In this document: positions 3-63,677 of the stretch, one piece after another
Layout: each line of letters begins with the position of its first letter
Numbering within the stretch: position 1 is the stretch's first letter
Assembly (NCBI GenBank): GCA_951812525.1
Contig: OX638316.1
Location: forward strand, 806,001 to 870,000
Direction of reading: 5' to 3'
DNA length: 64,000 nt
Source: an uncultured Poribacteria bacterium
Lineage (GTDB): Bacteria > Poribacteria > WGA-4E > WGA-3G
Translations under genes and position numbers: made by a program
Notes under the pieces: model-generated
The model's input: the letters and a program-made list of their open reading frames with translations, nothing else
Database searches by the model: none
Told to the model about the DNA's origin: nothing

Positions 3-536
3 TTTCGTTTAATGGATGTCTTCCTAAAACAGGTAAATGCGGTCGGATTTTCCGGGGTTCAGAACTTCCCTACGGTGGGTCTAATTGACGGAACTTTTCG
101 TCAATTGCTTGAGGAGACCGATATGGGATATGGGCCTGAGGTGGAGATGATTCGGACAGCGAGCCAGATGGGTATGCTCACCACACCCTACGCCTTCAAC
201 GAAACCGAAGCAGAACAGATGGCAGACGCGGGTGCGGATATTCTCGTCGCACACATGGGACTGACAACGAAGGGGTCTATCGGTGCGCAAACGTCCCTTA
301 CGCTCAAGGACGCCGCTGAACGGGTACAAGCCATCCATGACGCAGCGAAAGGGGTCAATCCAGAGATTCTCGTTATTTGCCACGGTGGTCCCATCGCTGA
401 ACCCGAAGATGCGACGTACGTCTTGGAAAATACTGAAGGTGTTGTCGGCTTCTACGGTGCGTCAAGTGCTGAACGTCTCCCGACGGAGCGTGCGATTACT
501 GCACAAATTGAGGCTTTCAAGCAGATCCGGTTATAG
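3..536 (+). CDS. Phosphoenolpyruvate hydrolase-like TIM-barrel protein, 3' fragment
   Basis: This is the C-terminal part of a TIM-barrel protein of the PEP_hydrolase type. The reading frame is open to the window edge, with Phe-Arg-Leu codons before the first ATG at 12, so the true start lies outside and the ATG is internal. Visible motifs are GFSGVQNFPTVGLIDG near the start, an acidic GADILVAHMG strand and the ICHGGPI turn, all usual for this family. The role is unclear: relatives are annotated as phosphoenolpyruvate hydrolases or Tm-1-like signalling proteins, often in sugar-acid catabolic loci. That fits the catabolic genes a few kilobases downstream, but no direct link can be shown. Confidence 0.75.
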   Translation, partial: FRLMDVFLKQVNAVGFSGVQNFPTVGLIDGTFRQLLEETDMGYGPEVEMIRTASQMGMLTTPYAFNETEAEQMADAGADILVAHMGLTTKGSIGAQTSLTLKDAAERVQAIHDAAKGVNPEILVICHGGPIAEPEDATYVLENTEGVVGFYGASSAERLPTERAITAQIEAFKQIRL

Positions 537-6644: not shown

Positions 6645-6724
6645 CATAAAACATAACAGCGCAGGGAACCGCAAAATCGATCGTACTAACAAATAGATAC
6701 TAATAGATACTATAGGAGGTAGGT

Positions 6725-7537
6725 ATGCTCAACCAAACGCAGGTTGACACATTTCGTGAAAAAGGGTTTCTTCTCGGGAACCGCGTTTTAAGTGATGAAC
6801 AGGTCGACGAATTACGTTCGGAATTGGCGCGCGTCATTGATAGTTATGAAAAACCCGAAGTCCCGCAGCCAGTCCGTATTGCTAACCTTGGCGGTAAAGA
6901 AGAGAGTCCAGTCTGGCAGATCGTTAATATTTGGGAAGCGAGTGCTGCCTACCACCGACTCATTCACAACCCGACCATTGTGGAAGAGATTGGACAACTC
7001 ATGTCAGCGACAGAATTGCGCGTCTGGCACGACCAGATCCAATACAAACCGCCAAAAGTTGGTGGGGTCAATCGTTGGCACCAGGACTCGCCATTGTGGG
7101 GCATTCTCACCCCCAAAACGAGTCAGGTAAGTGCCTGGGTTGCGTTGGACGATGCTAATGAAAGCAACGGGTGTATGCGGATGGTCCCTGGCTCTTACCA
7201 TTGGGGCAGTCAGATGCCGTTTTTGCGCGAGGTCGGGGACATTGACGCAATGCCAGAGCACTTTGAAGATAACGCATTGGAAGTAGAACTCTGTCCTGTG
7301 CCGAAGGGTCATGTTCATTATCATCATGCCTTGACGTGGCATGGATCGCATGACAACGCCAGTGGGAGCCCTCGACGCGCGATTGCAGTGCATTATATGA
7401 CTGGCGAAACCCTCTACGATGCATGTGGAAACCACATCATGAAACGTTTTGTTACCATCAATGATGGTAACAAATTAGCGGGCCACCATTTTCCGCTTGT
7501 GATGGACACAGGGAAACCGACGAAGCCTAATATATAG
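6725..7537 (+). CDS. PhyH family dioxygenase, tandem copy 1
   Basis: A 270-residue Fe(II)/2-oxoglutarate dioxygenase. The iron triad is visible as HQD at 119-121 and H206 in LTWHGSHDN; R218 in SPRRAIAV should bind 2-oxoglutarate. AGGAGGT lies just before the ATG. It is followed after 21 bases by a paralogue with about four of five residues identical, so the two are a recent tandem duplication. Both open with the same 18 residues and share the active-site block; differences cluster around 38-57 and 162-190, which could tune substrate choice. Confidence 0.88.
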   Translation: MLNQTQVDTFREKGFLLGNRVLSDEQVDELRSELARVIDSYEKPEVPQPVRIANLGGKEESPVWQIVNIWEASAAYHRLIHNPTIVEEIGQLMSATELRVWHDQIQYKPPKVGGVNRWHQDSPLWGILTPKTSQVSAWVALDDANESNGCMRMVPGSYHWGSQMPFLREVGDIDAMPEHFEDNALEVELCPVPKGHVHYHHALTWHGSHDNASGSPRRAIAVHYMTGETLYDACGNHIMKRFVTINDGNKLAGHHFPLVMDTGKPTKPNI

Positions 7538-7558
7538 CCTTTTCTATGGGAGGAAAGT

Positions 7559-8368
7559 ATGCTCAACCAAACCCAGGTTGACACATTTCGTGAGAAAGGT
7601 TTCCTTCTTGGAAGCCGTGTTTTAAGTGATGAACAGGTTGAGGAATTGCGGTCAGAATTGGACCGTGTTATGGCTGATTACGAGAAAGCCGATATTCCGC
7701 AGCCGGTACACATTGTCAATCTCGGTCGCAAAGAAGAAAGTCCAGTCTGGCAAATTGTTAATATTTGGGAGGCGAGTGCTGCCTACCACCGACTCGTTCA
7801 CAACCCGGTCATTGTGGAAGAAATTGGGCAACTGACCTCAGCAACAGAGCTGCGCGTCTGGCACGATCAGATCCAATATAAACCACCCGAAGTCGGGGGT
7901 GTCAACATGTGGCATCAGGATTCACCCTATTGGCCCATTCTTACCCCGAAAACGAGTCAGGTAAGTGCCTGGGTTGCGTTGGATGATGCTGATGAAAGCA
8001 ACGGATGTATGCGGATGGTCCCCGGTTCTTACCATTGGGGCAATCAGATCCCGTTCTTGCACGCCATCAAGGATATCCATTCCATGCCCAATCACTTTGA
8101 AGACAACGAATTAGAGGTAGAGTTCTGCCCTGTGCCGAAAGGACATGTCCACTACCATCATTCCTTAACGTGGCACGGGTCGCATGACAACACCAGCGGC
8201 AGTCCTCGGCGTGCGATTGCAGTGCATTATATGACTGGCGAAACCCTCTACGATGCCAGCGGAAAACACGTTATGAAACCCTTTGTCGCCGTTAATGATG
8301 GCGATAAATTGGCAGGCGACCATTTTCCGCTTGTGATGGATGCCGGAACACCAACGAACCCCAGTTGA
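7559..8368 (+). CDS. PhyH family dioxygenase, tandem copy 2
   Basis: A 269-residue paralogue of the preceding gene, also preceded by a GGAGGAAAGT ribosome-binding site. HQD at 119-121, the distal LTWHGSH histidine and the SPRRAIAV arginine are all retained, so both copies look active. Differences from copy 1 include G57R, K111E, R117M, L124Y and G126P near the HQD loop and a variable 165-190 segment. This pattern fits divergence in specificity rather than decay. It is probably co-transcribed with copy 1 and perhaps with the ThDP gene after it. Confidence 0.88.
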   Translation: MLNQTQVDTFREKGFLLGSRVLSDEQVEELRSELDRVMADYEKADIPQPVHIVNLGRKEESPVWQIVNIWEASAAYHRLVHNPVIVEEIGQLTSATELRVWHDQIQYKPPEVGGVNMWHQDSPYWPILTPKTSQVSAWVALDDADESNGCMRMVPGSYHWGNQIPFLHAIKDIHSMPNHFEDNELEVEFCPVPKGHVHYHHSLTWHGSHDNTSGSPRRAIAVHYMTGETLYDASGKHVMKPFVAVNDGDKLAGDHFPLVMDAGTPTNPS

Positions 8369-59171: not shown

Positions 59172-60329
59172 CTACTTATACAAACGTTCGTCTTCCAACG
59201 ATAGCCAAGTGCCGTAATCGCGTGGCATCTCTTTTATTGGACCTAAACCGGCTTCTTCATGCCACTGTAATAGCGGATGTTCTCGGTTTTTCTGCGGCAA
59301 CTCCACACGCCTACCATAGATGGAGGACTCAAAGATGCCCATCAGAATTTCAATGACATGACGACCTTCCTCGCCGTTAGACATGTGGTCTCGGTTTTCA
59401 TCCAATGCGTTCACATATTCGTCAACGAAGCAGTAATCATCAGCGTTTGCGCCCTTATCGGGGTCAAAATGCTCTGGATAGATAGACGGGAGTGCCTGCC
59501 ACTGATCGTGTGTGCCATCAGGGACGAAATGAGGCGTAGGTAGCCACCATGAACCTTTCAATTCCGACCAGAAAAGTCTACCTTCGGTGCCGTAGAGTTC
59601 CATGACGTATGCATCGGTATCGACCTTCGGAAATCTGTGCTGAATGAGGGTGCCAGTGACATTTCCGTCGAATTGGAGTGTTGCTGTGACATACTCGCCC
59701 ACGACTGTCCCCATGCCAGCTGGTGAGGGAAGCACATCATCGTGGACGATGGCACGACCACCCGTCGTCGCCTGCGTCACGACGCTTCGGCACCTTCCTC
59801 CGAAACGGAGCATATTGTTAACGACATGGGTTCCGATGTTCATTAGCCCGTAACCGGCGTAGTAGCCTTTTCCACTGGCGTAGATGTATCGGATGTCGCC
59901 GATTTTCCCTTCGTCTAAGGCTTTCGCGACCGCATGCATCGACGGACTGGTGCGTCGCTGATGATGCACGGCGACGCGAGCGTTTTTCTCTTTCGCCTTC
60001 GCCAGCACCTCATCCGCTTGAACGAGATCAATACAGAGCGGTTTCTCGACTTCGATGTTCACACCGTGTTCAAGAACACGCATACAGAGCGGATAGTGTG
60101 CCTCTGTTGCTGTCGGGATTGCTACAATATCGGGTGCTGTCTGCCGAATCATCTCGTCTAAATCGGTGAAGTGTACTGAGACATTCACGATATTGCCGAG
60201 GGTATCTAACCGATCTTGGACGAGGTCACAGAGTGCCACGATTTCAGTACGGGGGTGTGCGTAATACGCCTTTGCTGCTGAGGTGCCTCGACTTCGGCAG
60301 CCTAATATGGCAACGCGATAAGTTTTCAT
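59172..60329 (-). CDS. Gfo/Idh/MocA family oxidoreductase
   Basis: A 385-residue NAD(P)-dependent oxidoreductase, the longest of the four here. The Rossmann motif reads AILGCRSRG (7-15), with the last Gly of the usual pattern in place and Ser-Arg inside it. EKP is at 95-97, and VHHQRRTSPSMHAV is a typical active-site strand. The C-terminal extension ends HEEAGLGPIKEMPRDYGTWL. It stands upstream of the PhyH gene on the same strand, so the three genes (Gfo, PhyH, enolase-type) form a module like that at 3390-7537. Confidence 0.87.
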   Translation of the reverse strand: MKTYRVAILGCRSRGTSAAKAYYAHPRTEIVALCDLVQDRLDTLGNIVNVSVHFTDLDEMIRQTAPDIVAIPTATEAHYPLCMRVLEHGVNIEVEKPLCIDLVQADEVLAKAKEKNARVAVHHQRRTSPSMHAVAKALDEGKIGDIRYIYASGKGYYAGYGLMNIGTHVVNNMLRFGGRCRSVVTQATTGGRAIVHDDVLPSPAGMGTVVGEYVTATLQFDGNVTGTLIQHRFPKVDTDAYVMELYGTEGRLFWSELKGSWWLPTPHFVPDGTHDQWQALPSIYPEHFDPDKGANADDYCFVDEYVNALDENRDHMSNGEEGRHVIEILMGIFESSIYGRRVELPQKNREHPLLQWHEEAGLGPIKEMPRDYGTWLSLEDERLYK

Positions 60330-60484: not shown

Positions 60485-60520
60485 AAAAGTTACCAAATGG
60501 TAACTTTGTGGTAACTTTTT
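60485..60520. repeat. GGTAAC inverted repeat with two alternative right arms
   Basis: AAAGTTACC (60486-60494) pairs with GGTAACTTT at 60499-60507 and, alternatively, with a second GGTAACTTTT at 60510-60519. The second pairing ends in a T-run, so it could act as a plus-strand terminator. Confidence 0.6.
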
Positions 60521-60619: not shown

Positions 60620-60643
60620 AAATGTTACACTGGTGTAACATTT
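60620..60643. repeat. 24-bp palindrome
   Basis: AAATGTTACAC and GTGTAACATTT are exact inverted 11-mers around a TG centre. The GTGTAAC half recurs at 60738-60744. It looks like an operator or a recombination or hairpin site. Confidence 0.7.
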
Positions 60644-61052: not shown

Positions 61053-61092
61053 CGGGAGTCGCGATCAGGAGATCGCTCCTACAGCGGAATCA
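61053..61092 (+). repeat. Dispersed palindromic repeat, family B, copy 2
   Basis: GCGATC (61061-61066), AGGA, GATCGC (61071-61076) then TCCTACAGCGGAATCAT (61076-61092 region). The downstream tag recurs at 63775-63791 behind a different stem. Confidence 0.6.
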
Positions 61093-61156: not shown

Positions 61157-61654
61157 TTAGAAAATCCAGTTTTCTTTTTTTATTAAGTCCACTATTTTGA
61201 TGCACTGAAGGTTGAAATAAGCACAAACATCAGGAATCTTCGGTCTATTCTGGCTATGTGTAGGGTTCTCTTCTGTCACAACAACACAGTTTTCAAAGGT
61301 AAGTGCTAAGGCAATGACCCACGGGTCCGCCCCTGATTTTCCTGTCCGATTGTCTACTAATCTTGGAAACTGCGATAGTACCTCGTTGACATGCTCCTGC
61401 ACTGCCTCATCAATTGTCACTTGAAAATCTTGTTTTAATTGATTTTGATCGCACCACTGTTTTATTTCTGTATCTCTCATCGCCTCCTCGAAAACAATTT
61501 GCGACATTTTCAGACGACCATTTCTTATCAATTCCTCAATCCGATGCCATAAAGAATCAAAGTTTTCGATTGGGTATCGTTCATGAAAAGCCGCTATTAG
61601 CGCGCTCGTGTCAAGGCTGTAAATTACCTGATCGTGATTAAGCAACGAATTCAT
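61157..61654 (-). CDS. DUF4411 family PIN-like protein
   Basis: A 165-residue protein. It opens YSLDTSALIAAFHERYP, a PIN-like first strand with D15, and has GADPWVIALAL and VVTEENP near the C-terminus, which place further acidic residues as in PIN nucleases. Length and order fit DUF4411. These proteins usually stand next to an HTH-ImmA/IrrE protein, as here: its ATG overlaps the stop of that gene by four bases. A toxin-antitoxin or defence role is inferred from this pairing; nuclease activity is not proven. Confidence 0.8.
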   Translation of the reverse strand: MNSLLNHDQVIYSLDTSALIAAFHERYPIENFDSLWHRIEELIRNGRLKMSQIVFEEAMRDTEIKQWCDQNQLKQDFQVTIDEAVQEHVNEVLSQFPRLVDNRTGKSGADPWVIALALTFENCVVVTEENPTHSQNRPKIPDVCAYFNLQCIKIVDLIKKENWIF

Positions 61655-62823
61655 ACAAAGATAGCACTTTCAATTCCAGCAAGGTGTTTTGTGTCACAAT
61701 TGGAAAGAACAGAGGCTAATTCAGCGCGTGTGATTTTCTGTTCATAATAAGCCGTGAAAGCAGTCCGCGCGAAATATTCACCAGAAGTATTGAGAAGGCG
61801 ATTGTGATAAGGTGCAGCTCCACCTGTTCGTGCTGGAGTATTCCTGTACTTTGCCAATTGGCGGTTTCTGTACATTTGATAGTTACGTCGCGGCACGCTT
61901 CCGAGGGTTAGCAGTCGCCTCATAATAACTTCAGAACTAACATGAAAGTGCTTGGAGATTCCGAGTAGATCTTCTTCGAGTGTCTCCAAATTTACCATCC
62001 TCAGCAATTCATTTTCCGGGACTAAGACCTCAGCAGCAACCTGATTACAAAAGACTTCAATCGGATCTAGATTAGGAGAAGTTATTTCTTCAAAGTCAGT
62101 ATTCTGGATAGCACTTTCCCCAAGTGCTATATGAACCAACTCGTGAATGAGCGTAAAAATACGACCATAGGGACTGTCCTTAGGATTAACCACGATTACT
62201 GGGAAAGGCCTCTGTGCAACACAGAATCCACGGACTGTTTCCAGTTCAACAGAAAGATGTGTGTTCACGGAAGTATGACAGACCAAAATACCTTTCGCTT
62301 CGACAGTCTGTTTCCAAAACTTCAAGGCGGCGTATGGGTCATTTGCTCTGTGTAGATTTGTTCTGTTGAATTCAAGAAATTCCGTTATTTTTTGCACCGC
62401 GCGTCCCAGATCCTCATGCCTATTAACATCCAACATAATCTCAGGTGGAGACTCTTCTAATAATTCATAAAGTTCAATGAGAATCTCACGCCTTTCAAAT
62501 GCCTCAACGATATTGGCATTTAATCTATAGAGTTGTTCCTCATCAGTCGCGAGTTGTTCAGGCAATACTCGATAATCTGTAAGTGGCTGAAAATCGGTAG
62601 GCGGTTTCGGTAGATAGAAAATAGAGATATGGGTTTTATACAGTTTCGCAATTTTTTTTAGCTGCGTAAAGGTGGGTTGCTCTGTTCCATTTTCCCATGC
62701 TTCAAGGCGTTTGGCATCTATCCCTAACCTTTTTGCCACGTAATCTATCTCTAACTTGATGCGTCTTTCACGCGCCCATTTGAGAACTTCCGGCGTAATG
62801 AGTGCTTTGACAGATTTAGCCAT
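61651..62823 (-). CDS. HTH-domain ImmA/IrrE family metallopeptidase
   Basis: A 390-residue protein. Residues about 24-65 are a Xre-type helix-turn-helix (VAKRLGIDAKRLEAWENGTEQPT, given in part by its core LGIDAKRLEAWENG). The ImmA/IrrE zinc peptidase domain (about 160-300) has HELVH at 227-231, with a Glu-rich downstream helix (FCNQVAAEVLVP). The HTH plus protease form usually represses its own operon and cleaves a partner. It is the first gene of a two-gene transcript with DUF4411 and lies behind a near-consensus promoter with an inverted repeat at the start site. Confidence 0.88.
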   Translation of the reverse strand: MAKSVKALITPEVLKWARERRIKLEIDYVAKRLGIDAKRLEAWENGTEQPTFTQLKKIAKLYKTHISIFYLPKPPTDFQPLTDYRVLPEQLATDEEQLYRLNANIVEAFERREILIELYELLEESPPEIMLDVNRHEDLGRAVQKITEFLEFNRTNLHRANDPYAALKFWKQTVEAKGILVCHTSVNTHLSVELETVRGFCVAQRPFPVIVVNPKDSPYGRIFTLIHELVHIALGESAIQNTDFEEITSPNLDPIEVFCNQVAAEVLVPENELLRMVNLETLEEDLLGISKHFHVSSEVIMRRLLTLGSVPRRNYQMYRNRQLAKYRNTPARTGGAAPYHNRLLNTSGEYFARTAFTAYYEQKITRAELASVLSNCDTKHLAGIESAIFV

Positions 62824-62937
62824 AATCTGTATCCCTACAAACTGATTGGTTCATTGTAAAATCATCAATTGAGCGATGTTAACTCCAAGAATCACACAAG
62901 TAAATAAATCGAACAGCAAAAATATACTTAACATGTC

Positions 62938-62951
62938 TTACTTACAAGTAA
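62938..62951. promoter_or_regulatory. Candidate operator of the HTH-IrrE/DUF4411 operon
   Basis: TTACTT (62938-62943) and AAGTAA (62946-62951) form a perfect 6-bp inverted repeat with a two-base centre, six bases past the -10 box, over the expected transcription start. A second AAGTAA half-site lies at 62898-62903. The position suits a repressor, most simply the HTH protein itself. Confidence 0.6.
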
Positions 62952-62956
62952 TTTAA

Positions 62957-62985
62957 AGTATACCATAAAAAAATTGAATTGTCAA
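62957..62985 (-). promoter_or_regulatory. Near-consensus sigma-70-type promoter of the HTH-IrrE/DUF4411 operon
   Basis: On the minus strand TTGACA (62985-62980), 17 bases, TATACT (62962-62957): eleven of twelve positions match. The leader to the start codon is about 130 bases. Confidence 0.75.
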
Positions 62986-63101: not shown

Positions 63102-63677
63102 CTATTCTGCCAACGCAATTGCACCGCAACCGATGCGTGCGCCTGCATCGCCTGACGGCTGCGAGGTGAAATCGTCTGCACCGGCATGGACGACGATGCC
63201 TCTGCCGACAACATCTATGTCAGAACCGGTCCCGATTTCCCAAAGACTTGTCGTCAATTCAATACCGCCTGTGCCGTCCTCACCGACAGTAATATTACCA
63301 AGATCTCCGAGATGGAATTCGCCTTCTCCCCATTTTCCGTGTGCGACACCGGTCGGATTCCAGTGACCACCGGCGGATTTACCGTCAGGTGAACTACAAT
63401 CGCCGTTTTCGTGGATGTGAACGGCATGGATACCCGGAGATGCGTTCTGGATCTCAATGGTAAGTGTGATTTGGTCGCCGTTTTGTGTGAAAGTCGCCAT
63501 TCCGGTTACGCTACTACCGCTCGCTGAACCGATTGTGGCGATTGCCTGTTTCGTTGAAGGGATTGAAAGAACACCTGCTTGTTGTTGTATTCTATCACAA
63601 CTCATCAACACAAGAAAAATACCGATTAGTAAGAGAAATGAGGTATTTATGCCAAGCGTAATTAATCTCTTTTTCAC
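63102..63677 (-). CDS. sodC: Superoxide dismutase [Cu-Zn] lipoprotein
   Basis: A 191-residue exported SodC. The signal peptide ends in LMSC (lipobox, Cys27), so it should be anchored as a lipoprotein. Metal ligands are all present: H87 and H89 (HIHENGDC), bridging H105 (GGHWNP), H113, H122 and D125 (HLGDLG), and H164 (VVHAGADD). C94 and C184 can form the usual disulphide. The start is GTG with GGGGGA upstream. It removes periplasmic or external superoxide and would complement the exported peroxiredoxin at 38642. Confidence 0.93.
   Translation of the reverse strand: MKKRLITLGINTSFLLLIGIFLVLMSCDRIQQQAGVLSIPSTKQAIATIGSASGSSVTGMATFTQNGDQITLTIEIQNASPGIHAVHIHENGDCSSPDGKSAGGHWNPTGVAHGKWGEGEFHLGDLGNITVGEDGTGGIELTTSLWEIGTGSDIDVVGRGIVVHAGADDFTSQPSGDAGARIGCGAIALAE

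Follow-up and report, generated by a model that had tools for sequence, protein, structure and literature searches.

A DUF4411/HTH-peptidase cassette of Poribacteria as a probable VapBC52-type toxin-antitoxin operon with a candidate operator

What kind of system is encoded by a pair of overlapping genes, specifying an HTH-peptidase protein and a DUF4411 protein, in the genome of an uncultured member of the Poribacteria, and how might its expression be controlled? The stretch of DNA analysed here (the ‘window’) comprises 64,000 nucleotides, at positions 806001-870000 of a 5.06-Mb single contig, with genome-wide checks made through pattern and protein searches. On the basis of the observed anatomy, homology, catalytic residues, selection, promoter and dyad, we consider it likely that the cassette represents a toxin-antitoxin operon of the VapBC52 type, for which we propose a mechanism below. 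The kind of system is thus one already known, and the cassette is an ordinary, intact copy of it; the new points are modest, namely a conserved dyad and an absent cysteine switch.

The features of the locus are collected in Table 1. The original prediction had picked out the ATGA through which the two genes overlap; it is indeed there, and the same 4-base overlap is found in 22 of 22 relatives belonging to the cassette’s own clade. Its description of the flanks as AT-rich also holds, the flanking intergenic DNA having a GC content of 35-38% versus 50-52% in the neighbouring genes, with the cassette coding sequence at 42%.

Table 1. Features of the cassette and its surroundings (window coordinates, or residues where stated).
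Feature	Position	Strand	Details and basis
Antitoxin gene	62823..61651	-	390 aa; Pfam HTH_3 and Peptidase_M78; homology to 9vzy chain A
Antitoxin, HTH domain	residues ~14-67		Pfam HTH_3
Antitoxin, IrrE/ImmA-type Zn peptidase	residues 178-304		HELVH 227-231, third ligand E256
Antitoxin, C-terminal domain	after peptidase		alignments
Toxin gene	61654..61157	-	165 aa; Pfam DUF4411; homology to 9vzy chain D
ATGA, antitoxin stop/toxin start overlap	61651..61654	-	sequence
Promoter TTGACA-N17-TATACT	62957..62985	-	TTGACA 62985-62980, TATACT 62962-62957, 17 bp between; sequence, conserved in relatives
Candidate operator, TATACTT-N26-AAGTATA inverted repeat	62923..62962	-	column shuffles, 12 loci
14-bp palindrome TTACTT-GT-AAGTAA	62938..62951	.	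covers expected start site
Cu/Zn superoxide dismutase (SOD) gene	63102-63677	-	upstream neighbour of cassette
Gfo/Idh/MocA oxidoreductase gene	59172-60329	-	downstream neighbour of cassette
Palindromic repeat GCGATCAGGAGATCGCTCCTAC	61061-61082		~70 genome matches (<=2 mismatches)
Palindrome TGTTACACTGGTGTAACA	60623-60640		four exact copies in genome
Palindrome, GTTACC-AAAT-GGTAAC type	60490-60509		same intergenic region as TGTTACACTGGTGTAACA

The downstream gene encodes a match to Pfam DUF4411 (E 1e-34), whose residues 7-165 are homologous to VapC52, chain D of PDB entry 9vzy (E 1e-22); according to the data statement of the corresponding paper, entries 9vzy and 9vzz belong to work on M. tuberculosis VapBC52 (Rv2514c-Rv2515c) (PMC13273310). 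The PIN catalytic residues D15, E57, D110 and E129, which correspond to D6, E48, D99 and E117 of VapC52, are invariant in an alignment of 13 sequences, and the AlphaFold model of the toxin (pLDDT 89.5) matches VapC structures in Foldseek. Neither 9vzy nor 9vzz was among these Foldseek matches, the database copy used ending in April 2026 and possibly lacking both. By analogy with VapC52, which cuts tRNA (PMC13273310), the DUF4411 protein is predicted to be a ribonuclease of the PIN-domain class, with tRNA as its most probable substrate.

Its partner matches both HTH_3 (E 2e-8) and Peptidase_M78 (E 3e-17), and is homologous over residues 10-372 to VapB52, chain A of 9vzy (E 1e-40); an AlphaFold model of this protein (pLDDT 57) was too weak and was left out of the analysis. 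The zinc ligands H227, H231 and E256, equivalent to H216, H220 and E245 of VapB52, are invariant in an alignment of 14 sequences, and the Y84-R85 pair aligns with the FR cleavage motif of VapB52. At the position of the VapB52 switch residue, Cys229, the window antitoxin has Q240, a glutamine shared throughout its clade and invariant in 14 relatives. With the cysteine-switch residue missing, activation as in VapB52 cannot be transferred unchanged to the window pair and, to judge from the alignment, its peptidase must be restrained otherwise than by a cysteine, or less tightly.

Does this substitution set the cassette apart from the wider family? A genome scan found 230 relatives, of which the best 80 were kept; the closest matches outside the Poribacteria within this set are 44-46% identical. 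Toxin relatives occur, in addition, on 23 plasmids and in one phage record. An open reading frame of more than 200 aa immediately precedes the DUF4411 gene in 59 of the 60 non-poribacterial loci examined, and 58 of these 59 carry an HExxH motif (the exception had just 488 bp of upstream DNA), such that the HTH-peptidase and DUF4411 pair stays together over many phyla. The cysteine-switch position in the 58 distant antitoxins is occupied by Cys (38), Ser (16), Thr (2), Asp (1) or Gly (1). As the switch cysteine is present in only 38 of the 58, Gln240 is no bar to membership at the level of the family; about a third of the sampled pairs are without the proposed switch cysteine, which limits the generality of the cysteine-switch mechanism.

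A reading that overlaps with the VapBC52-type explanation, differing from it in biological role, is that of a RosmerTA-like anti-phage system (RmrA plus RmrT) acting in abortive infection rather than in a general stress response. We regard this as a serious possibility, if one that falls somewhat short of an even chance. Several of the RmrA models in PADLOC are hit by the antitoxin (best E 4e-18), NetFlax ties ImmA-type antitoxins to PIN-like toxins in a zone rich in phage defence (PMC10440598), and VapC52 itself gives phage resistance in M. smegmatis (PMC13273310); the RmrA matches, however, cover the profiles incompletely and involve a diverse model set, and the toxin has no match in PADLOC.

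Turning to expression, the near-perfect TTGACA-17-TATACT promoter that the original prediction had proposed is present, and sites of the form TTGACA-N16-18-TATA[ACT]T number just four in the 64-kb window. The arrangement TTGACA-N16/17-TA[TC]ACT recurs in 19 of the 21 homologous loci with upstream DNA, drawn from two poribacterial genera, a degree of conservation that argues for this predicted promoter being more than chance. The 14-bp palindrome over the expected start site is likewise present, but the operator role assigned to it does not survive comparison. Perfect 6-2-6 palindromes number 16 in the window, so that by itself it is no rarity; it is perfect in the window genome only, and as a unit shows no conservation. 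The original prediction had rested on its being conserved upstream of homologous cassettes, and in 12 same-genus loci it does no better than chance, with a mean of 3.2 of 6 pairs retained, a value reached by 64% of column shuffles.

What is conserved is a wider inverted repeat, TATACTT-N26-AAGTATA, the first arm of which overlaps the -10 box, whilst the second sits ~33 bp downstream within a conserved TTAAGTATA box (97% conserved, versus 75% for the stretch preceding it). Across the same 12 loci a mean of 6.4 of its 7 pairs is kept, matched by none of 5000 column shuffles, and in a second genus the arrangement is similar, if imperfect. An RNA hairpin formed from the outer arms was rejected, the -10 arm lying upstream of the expected transcript start; since this arm is outside the transcript, the dyad is most simply taken as a candidate DNA site for a protein. 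A regulon search of the whole genome with the 40-bp dyad pattern returned the cassette itself as its sole match and, the dyad being single in the genome, its role is likely to be local autoregulation of the cassette operon. Counting against it as an operator, relatives differ in the spacing of the arms by 1-2 bp, a variation seldom expected where a rigid dimer binds, and one arm is the -10 box, the conservation of which the promoter alone accounts for. The suggestion that the HTH-protease acts on its own promoter thus remains probable, with the element reassigned from the 14-bp palindrome to the wider repeat. By eye, several members of a second, ~30% identical subfamily have an ATGTT-N10-AACAT inverted repeat near their own promoter.

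Synthesising these observations, we propose a model in which toxicity, neutralisation, the ssDNA trigger, DNA binding and autoregulation are what we infer. The antitoxin would bind the PIN toxin through its N-terminal HTH and C-terminal domains and so hold it inactive, much as VapB52 neutralises VapC52 in a 1:2 complex through its own N- and C-terminal domains (PMC13273310), whilst the HTH domain, alone or toxin-bound, would repress the operon at the inverted repeat overlapping the -10 box. Single-stranded DNA arising from phage attack or DNA damage might then activate the peptidase, by analogy with VapB52, in which ssDNA induces self-cleavage that is proposed to release the toxin from the N-terminal HTH domain (PMC13273310). 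The antitoxin would cut itself between HTH and peptidase, at Y84-R85, freeing the toxin and opening the promoter. The fully specified version, a VapBC52-type system gated without a cysteine switch, with a single self-cleavage event serving to release the toxin and also to open the promoter through the dyad running from the -10 box to ~33 bp downstream, we put forward as speculative and rather unlikely to hold in every part.

Could the peptidase instead be, in the main, a regulator of the transcription of other genes, akin to ImmA/ImmR or IrrE/DdrO, with the PIN protein as an accessory nuclease? The fusion of an HTH to an IrrE/ImmA-type domain would suit such a role, and wider regulatory cascades were considered by Makarova et al. 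in 2009 (PMC2701414). Against this, no separate repressor gene adjoins the cassette, the single genomic occurrence of the 40-bp dyad means that no regulon is seen, the PIN gene is a constant partner over many phyla, and the homologous VapBC52 is a proven toxin-antitoxin system; taken together, we find this reading improbable.

The VapBC52-type operon appears, in addition, to be mobile, at least locally. Examining its distribution across strains, as originally suggested, we find it patchy, with toxin relatives in 38 of the 59 genomes of the family, and with signs of movement. The cassette is flanked by the SOD and MocA genes in the window genome (G000) and in G058, G034, G048 and G045, and has a SOD gene near it in G022; in G040 and G046 the SOD and MocA genes stand without a cassette, 176 and 325 bp apart respectively. 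The SOD-MocA gap of G053 (L079, 989-3936) contains short stretches resembling cassette-side sequence, an intact cassette lying elsewhere in that genome, and is possibly the scar of a lost cassette. There is also a conflict between trees, G045 grouping with G022 for the antitoxin (99/99) and with G053 for MocA (99/92), although this reference tree, built on one gene, approximates species history only roughly. The present, absent and decayed states of the locus, along with this conflict, indicate that the cassette moves inside the family, which fits a history of gain, loss and exchange. The proposal that the cassette was acquired by transfer is supported inside this family only, at the conserved SOD-MocA locus; the closest of the matches kept from outside the Poribacteria are 44-46% identical.

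As for the repeats to which acquisition had also been tied, the 3’ flank does contain GCGATCAGGAGATCGCTCCTAC and TGTTACACTGGTGTAACA; neither marks a boundary of the cassette. GCGATCAGGAGATCGCTCCTAC is interspersed genome-wide, in places as short tandem series, and part of the flank towards MocA can likewise be aligned (68%) with G037, which has no cassette, such that we rejected the flanking repeats as mobility boundaries. Copies of TGTTACACTGGTGTAACA and GCGATCAGGAGATCGCTCCTAC lie no more than ~440 bp apart here, near 3441387-3441648 and near 4473045-4473313.

Several homologous loci depart from the standard arrangement. In G028, G038 and G057 the toxin is broken beside a full-length antitoxin, a pattern to be anticipated were the toxin the harmful component, albeit some of these breaks may be draft-assembly errors. 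At L046 (G027, 6666-7663), the antitoxin match covers residues 219-389 only, ahead of a nearly full-length toxin, the HTH half being apparently missing. The toxins of L053 (G045), L054 (G022), L055 (G016) and L057 (G008) are 45-51% identical to that of the window, in contrast to 61-74% for their antitoxins, reflecting either quicker divergence of the toxin or a swapped toxin beside a kept antitoxin. The window genome itself holds a second HTH-M78/DUF4411 pair, ~30% identical (L067, G000:C1:4599528-4601133), the toxin C-terminus of which seems to sit in another reading frame and may be frameshifted.

That the window cassette is itself a dead or decaying remnant without function, as the decayed copies in relatives and the frameshifted look of this second DUF4411 copy might suggest, is highly improbable, since both of its reading frames run to full length, the catalytic residues are intact, and both genes are under purifying selection (dN/dS against five relatives of 0.06-0.10 for the toxin and 0.10-0.18 for the antitoxin).

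How, then, does the cassette compare with known systems? Classical VapBC modules pair a PIN-domain VapC with a small VapB antitoxin, the DNA-binding N-terminus of which is of RHH, AbrB or Phd type; the window toxin is likewise a PIN protein whose model matches VapC structures, but its partner is a 390-aa HTH-peptidase protein and not a small VapB. The original prediction had taken ImmA/ImmR as its model. The ImmA/ImmR pair of ICEBs1 and IrrE/DdrO of Deinococcus similarly couple an IrrE-family peptidase to an HTH repressor, but as two separate proteins, where the window has one fused protein together with a PIN nuclease gene, and VapBC52 is the closer relative. CapP/CapH of CBASS, to which VapB52 has been compared, also employs an IrrE-family peptidase, the cysteine switch of which is activated by ssDNA (PMC13273310); CapP cleaves a partner repressor and possesses the switch cysteine, whereas the window protein is fused and is without it. 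RosmerTA (RmrTA) resembles the window pair in joining an HTH-ImmA antitoxin with a toxin, PIN-like partners being mentioned, but its validated Kita phage toxin depolarises membranes, whereas the window toxin is a predicted PIN nuclease without an RmrT model match (PMC10440598).

Closer still are the operons of PIN and COG2856-HTH genes that Makarova et al. predicted in 2009 to be toxin-antitoxin loci, which likewise combine a fused HTH-Zn-peptidase gene with a PIN toxin gene; there the peptidase was suggested to cleave a separate Xre repressor, whereas the only HTH of the window operon is fused to the peptidase (PMC2701414). VapBC52 is the closest of all. It differs in having Cys229 in the switch loop where the window has Gln240, and identity is ~35% or less. 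Autoregulation by VapB52 is not treated, nor an operator described, in that work (PMC13273310), and the dyad offers a specific candidate operator for this family. Both window proteins are nonetheless homologous to their VapBC52 counterparts over nearly their full length, sharing the HTH - Zn peptidase - C-terminal domain order, the D/E/D/E residues of the PIN domain, the HExxH and E ligands and, at the motif for self-cleavage, an F/Y-R pair, thereby extending a recently solved toxin-antitoxin architecture to the sponge-associated Candidatus Poribacteria.
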